Assembly (NCBI RefSeq): GCF_944324745.1
Contig: NZ_CALUXO010000048.1
Location: 1-44,439 of the forward strand
Length of the DNA stretch: 44,439 bases
Reading direction: 5' to 3'
Source: an uncultured Thomasclavelia sp.
GTDB taxonomy: Bacteria > Bacillota_I > Bacilli_A > Erysipelotrichales > Coprobacillaceae
A program made the translations under genes and the position numbers. The notes under the pieces were generated by a model, which saw only the letters and a list, made by a program, of their open reading frames with translations, was not told where the DNA came from and ran no database searches. Numbering within the stretch: the first letter of the stretch is position 1; the number at the start of each line of letters is the position of its first letter. Below, one piece after another: positions 23,461-30,842 of this stretch.

Positions 23461-24891
23461 TCATGCATATCTTTTTCCAGCACTTAATTTTTGATAACTA
23501 TCCATCATCCCTTTTAAACAATCTTTAGTAATCGGATAACTATCACCATAGTTATTTTTATAAATTCGGTAACATCTTCGATACAATAACAAAGCTGTTT
23601 GATATTGTTTTAAGCAATAATAATCAAAAGCTAAATTAAACAAAAACTCTGTAGCTACTACATCATCATTTTGACTTAAACAGTAGTTATAGCTGTTTAG
23701 ATCTTTACTTAATAATAATTGGTTTAATTTATCACTTTGATTAAGCAAACGTAACCGCTTAGTATCAATTTTGATAGTAGCATAACTTTCAGTTGGCATT
23801 AAATGCTTGATTTTTTGTGATATTTTATTAGCTTTATCAATCATATTTAAATTAATATAGTCAATTTTTAGATTTTCTAAAACGTCGATGAATATTCGAT
23901 TATACTCATCATACACTTCCAGCATTTCCTGATAATATTGATAATCCAACTCTAATGCCTGATGATATTTATGTAATAAACGATAAACATCAGCCTGATT
24001 TTTAATGCTTGCAAGAGTATCCGGATGATTTTTACCTAACAGCTTAAATCTTAATAAATAACACTTTTTATGCAGATTTAAAGCCAGATAATAACTTTCT
24101 AATCCTTGATAATCTAATGCCAGATTATTTAAACTATTTAAAGTATCTTGATGGTTTTCAGTTAATAACTTTAAATATAATTGATAACACTGATCATCTA
24201 ATGTTAATGCTTCTTGATATCGGTACAGTTTTCGATAGCAGGCAGCTAAATTTGACATAATCTCTAACGTTTTTAAATCTTCACATCCATATTTAGCTTT
24301 TATAATTTGATAACATTGCTGATATAGTTTTAAAGATCGTTCATATTTTTCAATCATATAATAATCTTTAGCTAGTATTTTTAAAGCAGTGATAGTTTGG
24401 ATATTTGAAGAACCTAAAATTTGATTTTTTAAATCATAACTTAGCATGTCAATTTTAATTAATTTATTTATTCTAAAAGAATCGGGTTTATTTAAAATAT
24501 CCTCTCGGATTTTATCAAAATAATCATCTTGATAATTTAATGCTTTTTGATATAGTTCATTTAATGATCCTTCTTTTACTGAAGTCTCACTATACATCAA
24601 AGCAAAGTTAAATAAACTATTTAAAGTCTCTAAATGATTGGTTCCAAGTAGATCATTAAATACTTGATAACATTCTAAATATATTTGATAATCATATTTA
24701 AAATCATCAATCAAATCATAACAGTTTTCTAATTGATTTAATGTTTTAAGCGTCTTTTTATCATCTAATCCTAATAGCTCGCTTTGAGCATCAAAACACT
24801 CCTGATAGATTGGTAACGCTAAATAATATTTACCCTCTTGATAAAAACCATCAGCTTGATTTAATAAAATAGCAATACTTTCTTCATCCAT
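23461..24891 (-). CDS. Tetratricopeptide-repeat protein
   Basis: 476 residues made of about ten TPR units of roughly 42 residues, of the kinesin-light-chain-like type (LYQQCYQIIKAKYG..DLKTLEIMSNLAACYRKL). No signal peptide or membrane span and no catalytic domain, so probably a cytoplasmic protein-binding scaffold. AGAGGA precedes the ATG. It starts 12 bp after the CARF/PD-(D/E)XK gene and is surely co-transcribed with it. The partner protein is therefore the best clue to its job; the peptide it binds is unknown. Confidence 0.88.
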   Translation of the reverse strand: MDEESIAILLNQADGFYQEGKYYLALPIYQECFDAQSELLGLDDKKTLKTLNQLENCYDLIDDFKYDYQIYLECYQVFNDLLGTNHLETLNSLFNFALMYSETSVKEGSLNELYQKALNYQDDYFDKIREDILNKPDSFRINKLIKIDMLSYDLKNQILGSSNIQTITALKILAKDYYMIEKYERSLKLYQQCYQIIKAKYGCEDLKTLEIMSNLAACYRKLYRYQEALTLDDQCYQLYLKLLTENHQDTLNSLNNLALDYQGLESYYLALNLHKKCYLLRFKLLGKNHPDTLASIKNQADVYRLLHKYHQALELDYQYYQEMLEVYDEYNRIFIDVLENLKIDYINLNMIDKANKISQKIKHLMPTESYATIKIDTKRLRLLNQSDKLNQLLLSKDLNSYNYCLSQNDDVVATEFLFNLAFDYYCLKQYQTALLLYRRCYRIYKNNYGDSYPITKDCLKGMMDSYQKLSAGKRYA

Positions 24892-24903: not shown

Positions 24904-26058
24904 TTAATAAACTGATAATAATTTTGATACTAGATTTCCTTTTTTGATATCATCTTTATCAATAATGATACAATCTAGCTTTCTAGCTCGTTCATATATC
25001 AGACTAGTTCTTTCATCAATATCAGTTGTCGTAACAATTACTGGAAAAGATTCTTTTAAGCCAAATCTTTTAGTAATTACATATATTTCATTTAAATATT
25101 CTGTTTTTAATTCACTGGTCTTACAAGAAATAAAATATAGTTTTCTACCAATTCTAGCAATAACATCAACTTCATTAATAATCTTATTTTCATCGTCTTT
25201 ATCCCAATCGATAATTGTATTGATTTTTATTTCATCAAATTGCTTAGAATTATATATCTGCAAATAAGTATAAACCTCTAAAAAACTACCTTGTTGATTA
25301 ATTAAATTTTCAATTGTTTCATCATAATAATTAAAACAGATGCGCTCATCATAAATCTCTAAATTAATTAAAGCCCCAATTTTAGCTAAAGTATTAAACA
25401 TCGAAATATCTGCTTTGATTTTTCTACCGTCTAATTTGATATTTCTAGGAGCATCAATATTCCCATAGTAATTCGAATATTTTGCATTAATATATGAAAT
25501 AAAACGACTAAATCGTTTCCAGCGATTGACATCTTTTAATGCCAAAGCCACAACTTGATCAATAAAACTATTATTAACAATTTTATGAACATCTTGATTA
25601 CCGACAAAAGATGTTGCTCCAGCCAGATATAATATTTGTTCAATATCCAGTTTAACAAAACTAATTGTCTGATAGGTATTTTGGCTATCATTATTTAAAA
25701 GAATTATATTTTCATTTTCAATATCCAAATAGCTACATTGGATTTGATTTTCAATTGCGTATTTAAGCAAAGGAACTTTAATTCGGTCTTCACCACCAGT
25801 AATATCAATACAATCAACATCTTTAATTACTTGATGCAACTTTTCATCAATGATAAAAACTGATGAAAAATCAAGTTTTACTATTTCTACATTTATTCCT
25901 TGACATTTATTTTCAAGAAACGCTGCTGTATATTTTGCTTTTTGAATCAAATCATCATCTTCGTCAACTAAAAATGTAACTTTCAAAGGATTAAATGCCA
26001 TACTGGCATAAATATTATCTTCCAGTGAATCTGTAAATATCTCTAATAATTGTTTCAT
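24904..26058 (-). CDS. CARF-like plus PD-(D/E)XK protein, DUF1887 (Card1/Can2-like)
   Basis: 384 residues from ATG 26058, which has GGAG 6 nt upstream; ATG 26070 lacks a site. The N-terminal Rossmann/CARF-like domain (about 25-140) has VTFLVDEDDD and IDITGGEDRIKVPLLKYA. Thr87-Gly88-Gly89 aligns with the TGG(T/x)K ligand loop of DUF1887 CARF domains, but here it reads TGGED. A central region follows (about 150-250). The C-terminal restriction-like domain has GSFLE (Glu261), NEVDVIARIGRKLYFISCKT (Asp298, Ser311-Cys-Lys313). In Card1/Can2, cyclic tetra-adenylate from type III CRISPR activates nucleic-acid cleavage. No CRISPR array or cas gene is in this window; instead a TPR gene follows. The specific ligand and activity are inference. 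Confidence 0.8.
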   Translation of the reverse strand: MKQLLEIFTDSLEDNIYASMAFNPLKVTFLVDEDDDLIQKAKYTAAFLENKCQGINVEIVKLDFSSVFIIDEKLHQVIKDVDCIDITGGEDRIKVPLLKYAIENQIQCSYLDIENENIILLNNDSQNTYQTISFVKLDIEQILYLAGATSFVGNQDVHKIVNNSFIDQVVALALKDVNRWKRFSRFISYINAKYSNYYGNIDAPRNIKLDGRKIKADISMFNTLAKIGALINLEIYDERICFNYYDETIENLINQQGSFLEVYTYLQIYNSKQFDEIKINTIIDWDKDDENKIINEVDVIARIGRKLYFISCKTSELKTEYLNEIYVITKRFGLKESFPVIVTTTDIDERTSLIYERARKLDCIIIDKDDIKKGNLVSKLLSVY

Positions 26059-26268
26059 ATCTTTCTCCATTAAAATAGATTTTTTTACTTATAACAATAT
26101 TTTGATCATTATTTCGCCGTTTTTTATAAACTTATTATAACTTCAAATTAATCAATATAAAATAATCCACGCATTAAATTCCATATTTAGATTAAAATTA
26201 AATTTTTTATTTAAATAACTTGAATTAATCAACTAAATTTTATTAATCAAAAAAATAGGGCATTAAAT

Positions 26269-27875: not shown

Positions 27876-27902
27876 AAAAAGACACATCCCTGTGCCTTTT
27901 GT
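27876..27902 (-). terminator. Terminator after the agr peptide gene
   Basis: Stem AAAAGGCACA / TGTGTCTTTT (one G.U pair), 4-nt loop, then T-rich sequence on the minus strand. It ends the agr locus, about 75 bp after the peptide stop. Confidence 0.75.
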
Positions 27903-27974: not shown

Positions 27975-28079
27975 TTATTTAGTTTTTCTTCTTGGTTTGT
28001 AAGCTCCACCTGGTGAATAATTGTTTTCATACTTTTTGGCAATTTTTTTCACCATTTTGCAGACTTTTTCTTTTGTCAT
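27975..28079 (-). CDS. Candidate AgrD-type signal-peptide precursor, 34 residues
   Basis: Small frame with GGAGGTG upstream, overlapping the last 53 nt of agrB in another frame, as agrD genes commonly adjoin agrB. Residues 1-18 (MTKEKVCKMVKKIAKKYE) form a basic amphipathic helix like the AgrD leader. The core is NNYSPGGAY and the tail KPRRKTK. Standard AgrD has a ring Cys followed four residues later by the cleavage site, then an acidic Pro-containing tail. Here the core offers only Ser22, and the tail is basic. A serine lactone (as in the FsrD signal) or a linear product is possible. Assignment rests on location, size and helix. Confidence 0.7.
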   Translation of the reverse strand: MTKEKVCKMVKKIAKKYENNYSPGGAYKPRRKTK

Positions 28080-28590
28080 TATACCTTTTCACCTCCATAC
28101 TTATTGCAGTCATAAAGACTGTAAATCCGATTACATATGAAATCATTGGTATTTGATAGAACATAACTATCAAGAGTAGATAAATGACAAATAACACTTG
28201 GCTACGTAAAATGTTTTTTTCAAGCAAACTGGATTCTTGAAACCAAAATGCCTTAGCACTAAACAATAACATTAACGTCAAGATATATCCATTTAAATAA
28301 TGATATATCAGCATACATATTACATAAACCGTTGTCGTTATAAACATACACTTTTGAAAACTATCTGCATGATAACCATCCACTAATGTTCTTAACGAAA
28401 CCATTACTACGACAAAAATAATAGTTTCCAATAACTGCCCCAATAGTAATCCGATAGCGAAAATGATAAAAATTAATATACTCTGTGTTAAAACCAACTC
28501 TACCCCAAATCTTATCTCATCAAATTCATCATCGGTTACTGATTTGCCCTCAAGCAGATATGCTGTTATCTTTTCACTTACCTTCTCCAT
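28027..28590 (-). CDS. agrB: Accessory gene regulator B-like membrane protease
   Basis: 187 residues from ATG 28590 (CAGGTG 5 nt upstream); the longer frame to 28671 runs through the promoter. The AgrB active-site block SLRTLVDGYHADSFQKC gives His74 and Cys81, matching H77/C84 of the S. aureus enzyme. Five or six membrane spans follow. AgrB cuts and cyclises the AgrD precursor at the membrane. It is first of the agrB-peptide transcript and has AgrA-type boxes upstream. Confidence 0.92.
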   Translation of the reverse strand: MEKVSEKITAYLLEGKSVTDDEFDEIRFGVELVLTQSILIFIIFAIGLLLGQLLETIIFVVVMVSLRTLVDGYHADSFQKCMFITTTVYVICMLIYHYLNGYILTLMLLFSAKAFWFQESSLLEKNILRSQVLFVIYLLLIVMFYQIPMISYVIGFTVFMTAISMEVKRYNDKRKSLQNGEKNCQKV

Positions 28591-28606: not shown

Positions 28607-28675
28607 ATTATATTACAATTTTTGACATATTTTAATACTTGTGGATCGAACGGTCGAAAATTTGGATCCAACGGT
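28607..28675 (-). promoter_or_regulatory. agrB promoter with two AgrA/LytTR direct repeats
   Basis: On the minus strand ACCGTTGGATCCA (28675-28663) and ACCGTTCGATCCA (28654-28642) repeat with a 21-bp period, that is two 9-bp boxes with a 12-bp spacer, the geometry of AgrA sites. Six bp further on come TTAAAA (28635-28630), 17 bp and TATAAT (28612-28607). The poor -35 fits an activator-dependent promoter. Direct binding is inferred. Confidence 0.85.
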
Positions 28676-28687
28676 TAATTTTTATCT

Positions 28688-29947
28688 TTATTCACTAATA
28701 ATAATTCTAAAAAAGACTCGATTATTAGTATATTTATAATCAATCATTCCACCTAATGAAGCGATAATTTCTTTAATGATCATCATACCATTACCATGAC
28801 CTTTACCTTTAGTCGTAATAAAATTAGGTTCTTGAACAACTGGATTACTCACTTCAATTAACAGCATGTCTTCTTTACTAACTATTTTAATTGTAATATT
28901 TTTATTATCAGTTTGTCTTGCCGCTTCAACGGCATTATCAATTAAATTAAACAATAAACTACTCAGTTTATCCTCCGGTATTTTTAAGTTAGCTTTGACG
29001 ATTAAACTTGTTTCAAAATTAATATCCGGATTCAAACTTATTTTAGAATTGACAATGGCATCAATAACATTATTTCCACTAAAAACAATCTGCTTTATCT
29101 CATTTAAATTATGATTTAATTTAACTAAATATTGTTTGGCCTCTTTTGAATCATTATTAACTAACCCATTTAAGACATCAAGATGATTGATAAAATCATG
29201 TTTAAACTTACTTAACTCCAATTGTTCATGTTTTAAATCATTTAGATATTGCTTGGTCATACAATAAGAATTTTCCAATAACTCTAGTTTTCCATTTTCA
29301 ATAAAATTTTCTGAAGAACTTAAAATAAAATAATCAACTAAAACTAATAATATTGCCATAAGAATAATTGAAACTGTGATATCTATATCGTTTGTTTTAG
29401 ATAATATTGTATTCAGTAATAATACAATAAATAATTCTATAATATTAATAATAGTATAGAACGCAATGTTAATTGTAGGTAATCCATCAAAAATATACTC
29501 TTTCTTACTTAATATCCTGTAACTGATAAATAGAGCTAGCATATTTATTACTATAATAACTGCCCATCTTCCATTACCAGTTAAAACCTTTGAATAATCT
29601 GATGATAAATATGTCATTCCTAAAGATATAATGATTCCACAACTAATTACAAAAACATTATAATATAGAATAGTTATCAGTAAATTACTAAACTTATATT
29701 GCTTAGTAATAAAGCCACAATAGATAAAATCAGTAATCATGCATAATAGATTTCCAATAATAAACCAGCTGGCAAAATCTGCAGTTGAATAGGTGACAAT
29801 ATTTACAACAATCGCATAAATAAGAATTGCAATAATTAGTTTAAATGTTTTTTGTTTTCTTACTTTAGGAATTACTAAAGAGATAATAAATGTTAGGCCT
29901 ACAACATACATTAATGAGTAAATATATTCAATAAAAAAATTAATCAT
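28688..29947 (-). CDS. agrC: AgrC-like sensor histidine kinase (GHKL type)
   Basis: 419 residues. About six or seven membrane spans fill residues 1-210, the usual peptide-sensing domain. Then come a coiled dimerisation segment with the phosphoacceptor FKHDFINHLDVLNGL (His250), the N box LFNLIDNAVEAA (332-343) and the G box GKGHGNGMMIIKEI (about 381-394). It should sense the product of the neighbouring peptide gene and phosphorylate the adjacent regulator. Its ATG overlaps the stop of agrA by 4 nt (ATGA). Confidence 0.92.
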   Translation of the reverse strand: MINFFIEYIYSLMYVVGLTFIISLVIPKVRKQKTFKLIIAILIYAIVVNIVTYSTADFASWFIIGNLLCMITDFIYCGFITKQYKFSNLLITILYYNVFVISCGIIISLGMTYLSSDYSKVLTGNGRWAVIIVINMLALFISYRILSKKEYIFDGLPTINIAFYTIINIIELFIVLLLNTILSKTNDIDITVSIILMAILLVLVDYFILSSSENFIENGKLELLENSYCMTKQYLNDLKHEQLELSKFKHDFINHLDVLNGLVNNDSKEAKQYLVKLNHNLNEIKQIVFSGNNVIDAIVNSKISLNPDINFETSLIVKANLKIPEDKLSSLLFNLIDNAVEAARQTDNKNITIKIVSKEDMLLIEVSNPVVQEPNFITTKGKGHGNGMMIIKEIIASLGGMIDYKYTNNRVFFRIIISE

Positions 29948-30630
29948 ATTCGTTCCATCACTTTCATAATCAATTCAAAAATACTTTCCTTCTTTCGCCG
30001 ACTAACTTCAATTTCTACATTTGTATGATTTAAAGTTATAATATTTCCTTTCATCTTTTTGACATTGTCGATATTGATAATTTGATTCTTATTCACTTGA
30101 ATAAACTGACTCGGTAAAAGTGGCAGTATTTCTTTAAAAGGAATGTAACCGATATCTTCATATTCATGTGTTAAATGAACAAATACATGCTTTTGAACAT
30201 ATTCGATATATAAAATATTCATTGGATTAAAACGATATATTTCTTTTTTATTGCTTATAGTAATTTTACGGTTTTGATTAACTAATTTAAATGTTTCATT
30301 TAACACGCGACCAATTTCTGTTTCTAATTGATTTTTGAATATGTATCCAGCAACATTGATCCCAAATGCTTCAGCCATTCTATCAGGAATTCCAGTTATG
30401 AATATGATAATAATATTTTCATAACGTAGTTGCTTAGCCAGAGCAATTCCATCAATTTCTGGCATATCAATATCTAAAAGTATAATATCGTAATCTTTGC
30501 TGCTATTAATAAAATCTTTGGCTTTTGTATATTTGTCTATTTTACACTTTTCTAAATAATTCCTTTCTAATATTAACTCGTGAATCTTGTTGCAATAATA
30601 AATCTCATCATCTAAAATTGCTATTTTCAT
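29944..30630 (-). CDS. agrA: AgrA-like LytTR response regulator
   Basis: 228 residues. Receiver domain with Asp8/Asp9 and phosphoacceptor Asp53 (ILLDIDMPEIDG), and conserved Lys near 103 region. The C-terminal LytTR DNA-binding domain includes NILYIEYVQKHVFVHL and FIQVNKNQIINIDNVKKM. It is first in agrA-agrC, the reverse of the S. aureus order. GGAG lies 9 nt before the ATG. The LytTR boxes upstream of agrB are the obvious target. Confidence 0.93.
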   Translation of the reverse strand: MKIAILDDEIYYCNKIHELILERNYLEKCKIDKYTKAKDFINSSKDYDIILLDIDMPEIDGIALAKQLRYENIIIIFITGIPDRMAEAFGINVAGYIFKNQLETEIGRVLNETFKLVNQNRKITISNKKEIYRFNPMNILYIEYVQKHVFVHLTHEYEDIGYIPFKEILPLLPSQFIQVNKNQIINIDNVKKMKGNIITLNHTNVEIEVSRRKKESIFELIMKVMERI

Positions 30631-30811: not shown

Positions 30812-30842
30812 AAAAGCATTCTAGATTTTCTAGAATGCTTTT
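30812..30842 (-). terminator. Terminator of the leu-ilv operon
   Basis: Perfect 14-bp stem AAAAGCATTCTAGA / TCTAGAATGCTTTT with a 3-nt loop and TTTTTT on the minus strand, just after the ilvB stop. Confidence 0.95.

Follow-up and report, generated by a model that had tools for sequence, protein, structure and literature searches.

What signal can an AgrB peptidase make from a precursor that has neither a ring cysteine nor an acidic tail? The question is raised by a 34-aa ORF beside agrB in a 44,439-nucleotide stretch of contig NZ_CALUXO010000048.1 (assembly GCF_944324745.1) from an uncultured Thomasclavelia sp., here called the window. The peptide has a single cysteine, in the leader at position 7, and none in the core SPGGA, hence the Cys-x4 layout is lacking. 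Its tail, YKPRRKTK, has eight residues and keeps the proline but holds neither D nor E, in contrast to the acidic tail of classical AgrD. An earlier note on this DNA had read both absences correctly and had proposed a new class of agr pheromone. The rules for AgrB substrates derive almost wholly from Staphylococcus aureus, in which the cysteine and particular tail residues are needed, and in the open-licence literature we came across neither an account of agr for this genus nor one of AgrDs with an SP-type core. Judging from the comparisons below, the window appears to hold an agr-type system whose Ser-core AgrD represents a new subfamily, and the subfamily is its distinctive part. The AgrB probably makes a Ser-lactone autoinducing peptide (AIP) with the ring SPGGA from the AgrD of a complete agr operon.

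The operon and its precursor gene

The operon is complete, in the order agrA-agrC-agrB-agrD, and the Pfam domains to be expected of agrA, agrC and agrB are all present (Table 1). The AgrB is intact, as the earlier note had it. G72-Y73-H74-A75 and C81 are kept in the AgrB alignment, H74 and C81 are invariant within the clade, and H74-x6-C81 has the same spacing as the His77/Cys84 dyad of S. aureus AgrB. With a His/Cys dyad in AgrB and a receptor kinase and LytTR regulator in the same operon, the locus has the parts of an agr-type system, and terminator-like hairpins flank it at both ends. We found no relative of the window AgrB among plasmid records and none related to it by sequence among solved structures.

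Table 1 Features of the agr operon in the window (coordinates are window positions).
Feature	Position	Strand	Remarks
Intrinsic terminator-like hairpin after agrD	27877..27900	(-)	
agrD-like pheromone precursor gene	27975..28079	(-)	ATG start, 34 aa, MTKEKVCKMVKKIAKKYENNYSPGGAYKPRRKTK; evidence: ORF, orthologs in L003 and L005, dN/dS
C-terminal tail Y27-KPRRKT-K34	27978..28001	(-)	net +5, without acidic residue; predicted AgrB cut before Y27
Predicted five-residue lactone ring S22-P-G-G-A26	28002..28016	(-)	Ser at -5 of Y-x-P; best PSSM register in peptide
Leader M1-Y21	28017..28079	(-)	basic, amphipathic; net +5, GRAVY -1.1
agrB, membrane peptidase	28027..28590	(-)	187 aa, intact; PF04647 E=1.1e-21; putative dyad H74/C81
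Shine-Dalgarno GGAGGTG of agrD	28090..28096	(-)	strong; 10 bases before ATG; kept in all three orthologs
Promoter-like TTAAAA-17-TATAAT upstream of agrB	28607..28635	(-)	consensus match only, of a kind no commoner in this region than in shuffles
AgrA/LytTR-type direct repeat ACCGTTGGATC-N10-ACCGTTCGATC	28644..28675	(-)	period 21 bp; just upstream of promoter-like site before agrB
agrC, receptor histidine kinase	28688..29947	(-)	419 aa; HATPase_c_5
agrA, response regulator with LytTR domain	29944..30630	(-)	228 aa; PF00072, PF04397
Terminator-like hairpin	30812..30842	(-)	parts upstream acetolactate-synthase-like gene from agrA

The 34-aa ORF is the last gene of the operon, and its first 53 bp lie within the 3' end of agrB. 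It has the make-up of an AgrD precursor, a short ORF overlapping agrB with an amphipathic leader, a core and a tail, the leader being basic and hydrophilic instead of hydrophobic. The earlier note had asked for a comparison of the peptide genes beside agrB in sister species, and such a comparison yielded both close orthologs and a wider subfamily. An orthologous operon occurs in two further species of the genus, in each of which the peptide follows the orthologous agrB: Erysipelatoclostridium sp. An173 (L003, same contig as G002:C48; MTKEKVCNMVRKIAKKFENNYSPGGLYKPRRKTK) and genome G005 (L005; MAIKKKVVSLVKKVSKKYADNYSPGGMYKPTRNKK). The two orthologs (88% and 62% identity) keep NYSPGG[A/L/M]YKP, and frame, Shine-Dalgarno sequence, core and position are conserved across the three species. 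Between the window and An173, 89 of 102 agrD nucleotides are identical without a gap, and the 110 nucleotides downstream align only with 38 gap positions. The dN/dS for this pair is about 0.067/0.58; the ORF is under purifying selection and is a real gene, beyond chance. On a DNA level, the pattern for SPGG-x-YKP occurs once in each of the three genus genomes with an orthologous agrB and in 0 of 6 other genus genomes, at one genome per species and with a host genome that is 95.6% complete in 100 contigs. The pattern SPGGxYKP also matched 36 viral contigs, and these matches are coincidental: 34 lie inside one conserved larger frame, mostly of about 220-240 aa, two look like chance, and none has an AgrD-like ORF.

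Serine cores among related AgrDs

To judge what is normal in the host's bacterial family, we gathered AgrB partners from 43 of its genomes and paired 24 AgrBs with a convincing AgrD outside the subfamily described below. The residue at -5 of the Y-x-P-like motif is Ser in 17, Cys in 5 and Thr in 2 of these, counts that cover recognisable AgrDs only, because a simple search left roughly half of the AgrB loci without a clear AgrD. For one peptide with Cys beside Ser (SCNHQ, L016), the assignment was taken from L064 (SRGHQ), a close relative. Among family neighbours, Ser-x4 with a Y-x-P-like motif behind it is hence the commonest layout (for example, SRWGD-YQPKES, SVLGM-YQPKIP and SWWLF-YEPKKP, beside CDILF-YQPKEP and TWIWM-YEPEKP), and rings of the form S-x-x-G-x recur (SRIGM, SRWGD, SVLGM, SIFGM, SRSGS). 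SPGGA-YKP fits this layout, so the missing ring cysteine is ordinary here. A PSSM built from the family cores finds its best register in the window peptide at S22, although the significance is modest in the window: 866, 491 and 13 of 20,000 shuffles reach the score of the three orthologs, 866 for the window and 13 for L005.

A second agr locus in the host genome (L002, G000:C4:5365-8862) has an agrB, an agrC-like gene and a Ser-type AgrD, SRIGM-YQKQE, without Pro. This peptide and the family Ser-type AgrDs (SRWGD-YQPKES, SVLGM-YQPKIP, SRSGS-YQGKEP) share with the window Ser-x4, then Y-x-P or a close variant, and an AgrB partner, but differ in a hydrophobic leader and in tails of 11-15 aa that contain 1-5 acidic residues. 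More generally, the tails of the 24 other catalogued AgrDs have 1-5 acidic residues compared with 0 in the window, and leaders of relatives outside the subfamily are hydrophobic (GRAVY +0.1 to +1.5). What is unusual in the window peptide is the tail without acid, its shortness and the hydrophilic leader. Of the departure from the usual AgrD tail that the earlier note had stressed, only the complete lack of acid is special; Tyr-x-Pro is retained, and net-basic tails are common among family relatives.

The peptide matches no family at E<=1 in Pfam or NCBIfam, AgrD models included, and a TIGR04223 scan of the host genome gave nothing above the cut-off and nothing at the 27975-28079 gene. Because curated AgrD models describe the Cys type, and TIGR04223 misses Ser-type peptides, this makes membership of TIGR04223 less likely but not that the peptide works like an AgrD. 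The subfamily described below hints that Ser-lactone signals are common in this bacterial group and have been overlooked by the curated models.

The window peptide belongs to a subfamily of eight, found in two families of a single order, that share S-P-x3-Y-[KR]-P and a basic tail. In the AgrB tree, two further systems adjoin the window clade (100/99), with agrD after agrC and the gene order B-A-C-D, compared with A-C-B-D in the window; their agrDs are MKLINKIANTLICQVKKSNYNCSPLGFYKPKK (L123:6997-7095) and MKNMIKKVIKKRIEKVKLNGYNCSPCDYYRPKKPSK (L124). Searching with a profile brought in two more members, MVLIKKVARIMIERVKETNYNCSPAGFYKPKKLFKKD (L146) and MKLLKKITAMIVGYVIKSDYCCSPMGYYKPKK (L147), and the eighth, MKNKFASVLSKVLIKVGQTFDRNVSPHNFYKPKKYK (L148), was reached in another family of the same order by way of an AgrB profile. 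All five sisters share S-P-x3-Y-[KR]-P with basic residues after it, and where the window has Tyr21, four have Cys (NCSPLGF-YKP, NCSPCDY-YRP, NCSPAGF-YKP, CCSPMGY-YKP) and L148 has Val. S, P, Y and P are invariant in all eight, Ser always being at -5 of Y-x-P, whereas the residue before Ser runs Y, Y, Y, C, C, C, C, V. Tails are basic after the core, with one acidic residue among them all, at the very end of L146. Within the host's family, the AgrBs of five subfamily members group together (100/99 in a first analysis, 92/83 in a second), and for six tested subfamily AgrBs, in a tree with long branches, a single clade is compatible with the data (p-AU 0.42). In a phylum survey of 392 sampled genomes, matches to the subfamily profile were confined to the host's order (4 genomes). 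The N-termini of the window-clade AgrBs are among the most acidic (-5), although a test for complementary charge on the AgrB N-terminus and the AgrD tail gave no significant result.

Some relatives have features of their own. In L146 (4600-4785, G019:C11), the agrB looks truncated or degenerate and lies directly before agrA, while agrA, agrC and the SP-type agrD are intact; the system is possibly receiver-only or processed in trans. L147 (4771-4869, G026:C5) has an SP-type AgrD without a nearby agrB; a subtilase-like gene and ABC transporter genes lie a few hundred bases away. L148 (1393-3912, G390:C7) has two tandem agrC-like receptor genes of 414 aa, near-identical in their first 34 residues, before agrB and agrD, possibly a duplication or receptor switching. 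Outside the subfamily, AgrD-like peptides downstream of agrB in two congeners carry Thr at the ring position (L021:1317-1451 and L070; TWIWM-YEPEKP and TWIWM-YEPKRP) and are candidate Thr-lactone signals. Three AgrB-like proteins of family f2 (L128, L129, L130) carry DDTFHS where others have the GYHA motif, and no agrD was recognised alongside them.

Probable ring closure

The window peptide reads S22-PGGA-Y27-K-P, with Ser five residues ahead of Y-x-P, and the invariance of this position (8/8) bears out the suggestion that Ser22 is the probable ring residue. A five-residue core followed by aromatic-x-Pro is also found in the AgrDs of Listeria monocytogenes and Clostridium. Unlike the window, these form a Cys thiolactone, which can rearrange to a homodetic cyclopeptide (PMC11297923). 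Ser-lactone AIPs are known from Staphylococcus intermedius/pseudintermedius (PMC3673130, PMC10482373), in which the same Ser-for-Cys swap occurs in an AgrB-AgrD-AgrC-AgrA system, and the window system differs in its SPGG-x core, all-basic tail of 8 aa, hydrophilic leader and gene order A-C-B-D. GBAP of the Enterococcus faecalis Fsr system is likewise a Ser-closed lactone of an agr-like operon (PMC12312760), with a nine-residue ring in an 11-residue peptide compared with the predicted five residues in the window. A ring serine is thus already known and is the commoner residue in the host's family, and a 'new class of agr pheromone' is too strong a description.

The Ser-lactone reading would work as follows. 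The basic amphipathic leader would keep the precursor at the inner membrane face, where AgrB, through H74/C81, would cut between A26 and Y27. Attack on the acyl-enzyme by the S22 hydroxyl would then yield SPGGA as a five-residue lactone that bears a short exocyclic tail (perhaps N-N-Y); removal of the leader and export of the peptide would follow. Since Ser is preceded by Tyr in three species, by Cys in four and by Val in one, it is the sole constant nucleophile, which favours a Ser lactone throughout the subfamily, the cysteine of the sisters being exocyclic. Several observations speak against it: the window tail has 8 aa and no acid, although E34, L41 and tail length are needed in S. aureus AgrD (PMC10482373); the Cys beside Ser could be the nucleophile in four subfamily members; the window core scores modestly on the family PSSM; the charge test described above gave no significant match; and S. 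aureus AgrB is unable to process a Ser-AgrD (PMC10482373), so tolerance of Ser must be a property of the window AgrB, with other substrate rules.

If no ring is kept, the signal would be a linear pheromone, with AgrB, perhaps helped by a second peptidase, trimming the precursor to an active N-Y-S-P-G-G-A-type peptide. The core holds no Cys, Pro-Gly-Gly is unusual in a ring, and both leader and tail are strongly unlike classical AgrD. Lactone formation from an acyl-thioester is, moreover, less favoured than thiolactone exchange. We nevertheless consider a linear signal improbable, given that the Ser at -5 is invariant in the subfamily and the usual residue there in the family, that AgrB chemistry couples cleavage to cyclisation and that linear staphylococcal AIPs are inactive on AgrC (PMC10482373). 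The cysteine ahead of Ser in the NCSP and CCSP sisters raises another reading, a Cys-type ancestor with a six-residue ring (C-S-P-x-x-x) that lost its Cys in the window clade, leaving the window peptide to be otherwise processed or rearranged (homodetic). Six-residue Agr rings have been mentioned (PMC12312760), but with Tyr at this position in three species and Val in L148 it is Cys that is dispensable and not Ser, and the other Cys-type AgrDs of the family have Cys at -5, not -6, which leaves this history with a low probability. It is very unlikely that another gene encodes the true AgrD and that the 34-aa ORF is degenerate or accessory: the lack of a Pfam or NCBIfam match and a fragmented genome that could conceal a gene stand against the conservation and purifying selection described above, an occurrence in the genus that fully coincides with that of the orthologous agrB, and a search of the genome for a separate Cys-type agrD, raised as a possibility by the earlier note, that found none, the AgrD model scan (which misses Ser-type peptides) giving no match over its cut-off and the only other agrBD (L002) having its own Ser-type AgrD.

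Beyond the Ser lactone itself, we propose that the AgrBs of the subfamily work without an acidic tail. A bolder version, that of an order-restricted AgrBD subfamily whose AgrB recognises a short all-basic tail and closes a Ser ring even beside Cys, or else makes a non-thiolactone (linear or homodetic) signal, is tentative and rather doubtful. If true, Ser closure beside Cys with a basic tail, or a non-thiolactone signal, would change the accepted substrate rules of AgrB. The subfamily offers natural substrates with neither the Cys nor the particular tail residues, together with sisters with adjacent Cys and Ser, so that the roles of nucleophile, tail charge and leader are separable with few constructs.

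Proposed sensing and control of the operon

With a Ser-lactone signal, AgrC would sense the exported peptide, and ring residue 5 is the most likely species-specific determinant. It is the sole ring residue that varies among the three orthologs in an otherwise fixed core (GCT, TTA and ATG, for A, L and M). Between the window and An173, the AgrC sensor is 85% identical over residues 1-110 and 51% over residues 111-205, a divergence expected if the second sensor half meets a changing ligand.

Upstream of agrB, putative AgrA-type tandem sites lie at the promoter-like site with a 21-bp period, the same layout as in S. aureus P2, in which two 9-bp AgrA sites are 12 bp apart (PMC10482373). In a genome search for AgrA-type repeats, the agrB site is the only match with 0-2 mismatches; the search for an AgrA regulon gave three weak sites with 3 mismatches besides it, none convincingly at a promoter. 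Repeats with 21-bp spacing occur at the matching place in the orthologous operons; in L003 they precede agrB, and in L005/L074 they follow agrC. Their presence in three orthologous operons points to an autoinducing circuit, in which phospho-AgrA would bind the repeat and raise agrBD transcription; we infer autoinduction of the agr operon from this arrangement.

In G005, the interval between agrC and agrB (L074:5635-6010) has the AgrA-type repeat and a promoter-like site about 370 bp from agrB. The ~370 bp that separate them from agrB hold a strong hairpin plus T-run (GCTTTGTGC..GGCACAAAG TTTTAATTTTTTT), and the interval, by analogy with RNAIII in S. aureus, could encode a small AgrA-controlled RNA. 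Elsewhere in the window, a 388-aa protein (24904-26070, (-)) with a Card1-like endonuclease domain (PF09002, E=5.9e-7) is encoded beside a TPR protein (23461-24891) and is possibly a cyclic-oligonucleotide-activated nuclease.
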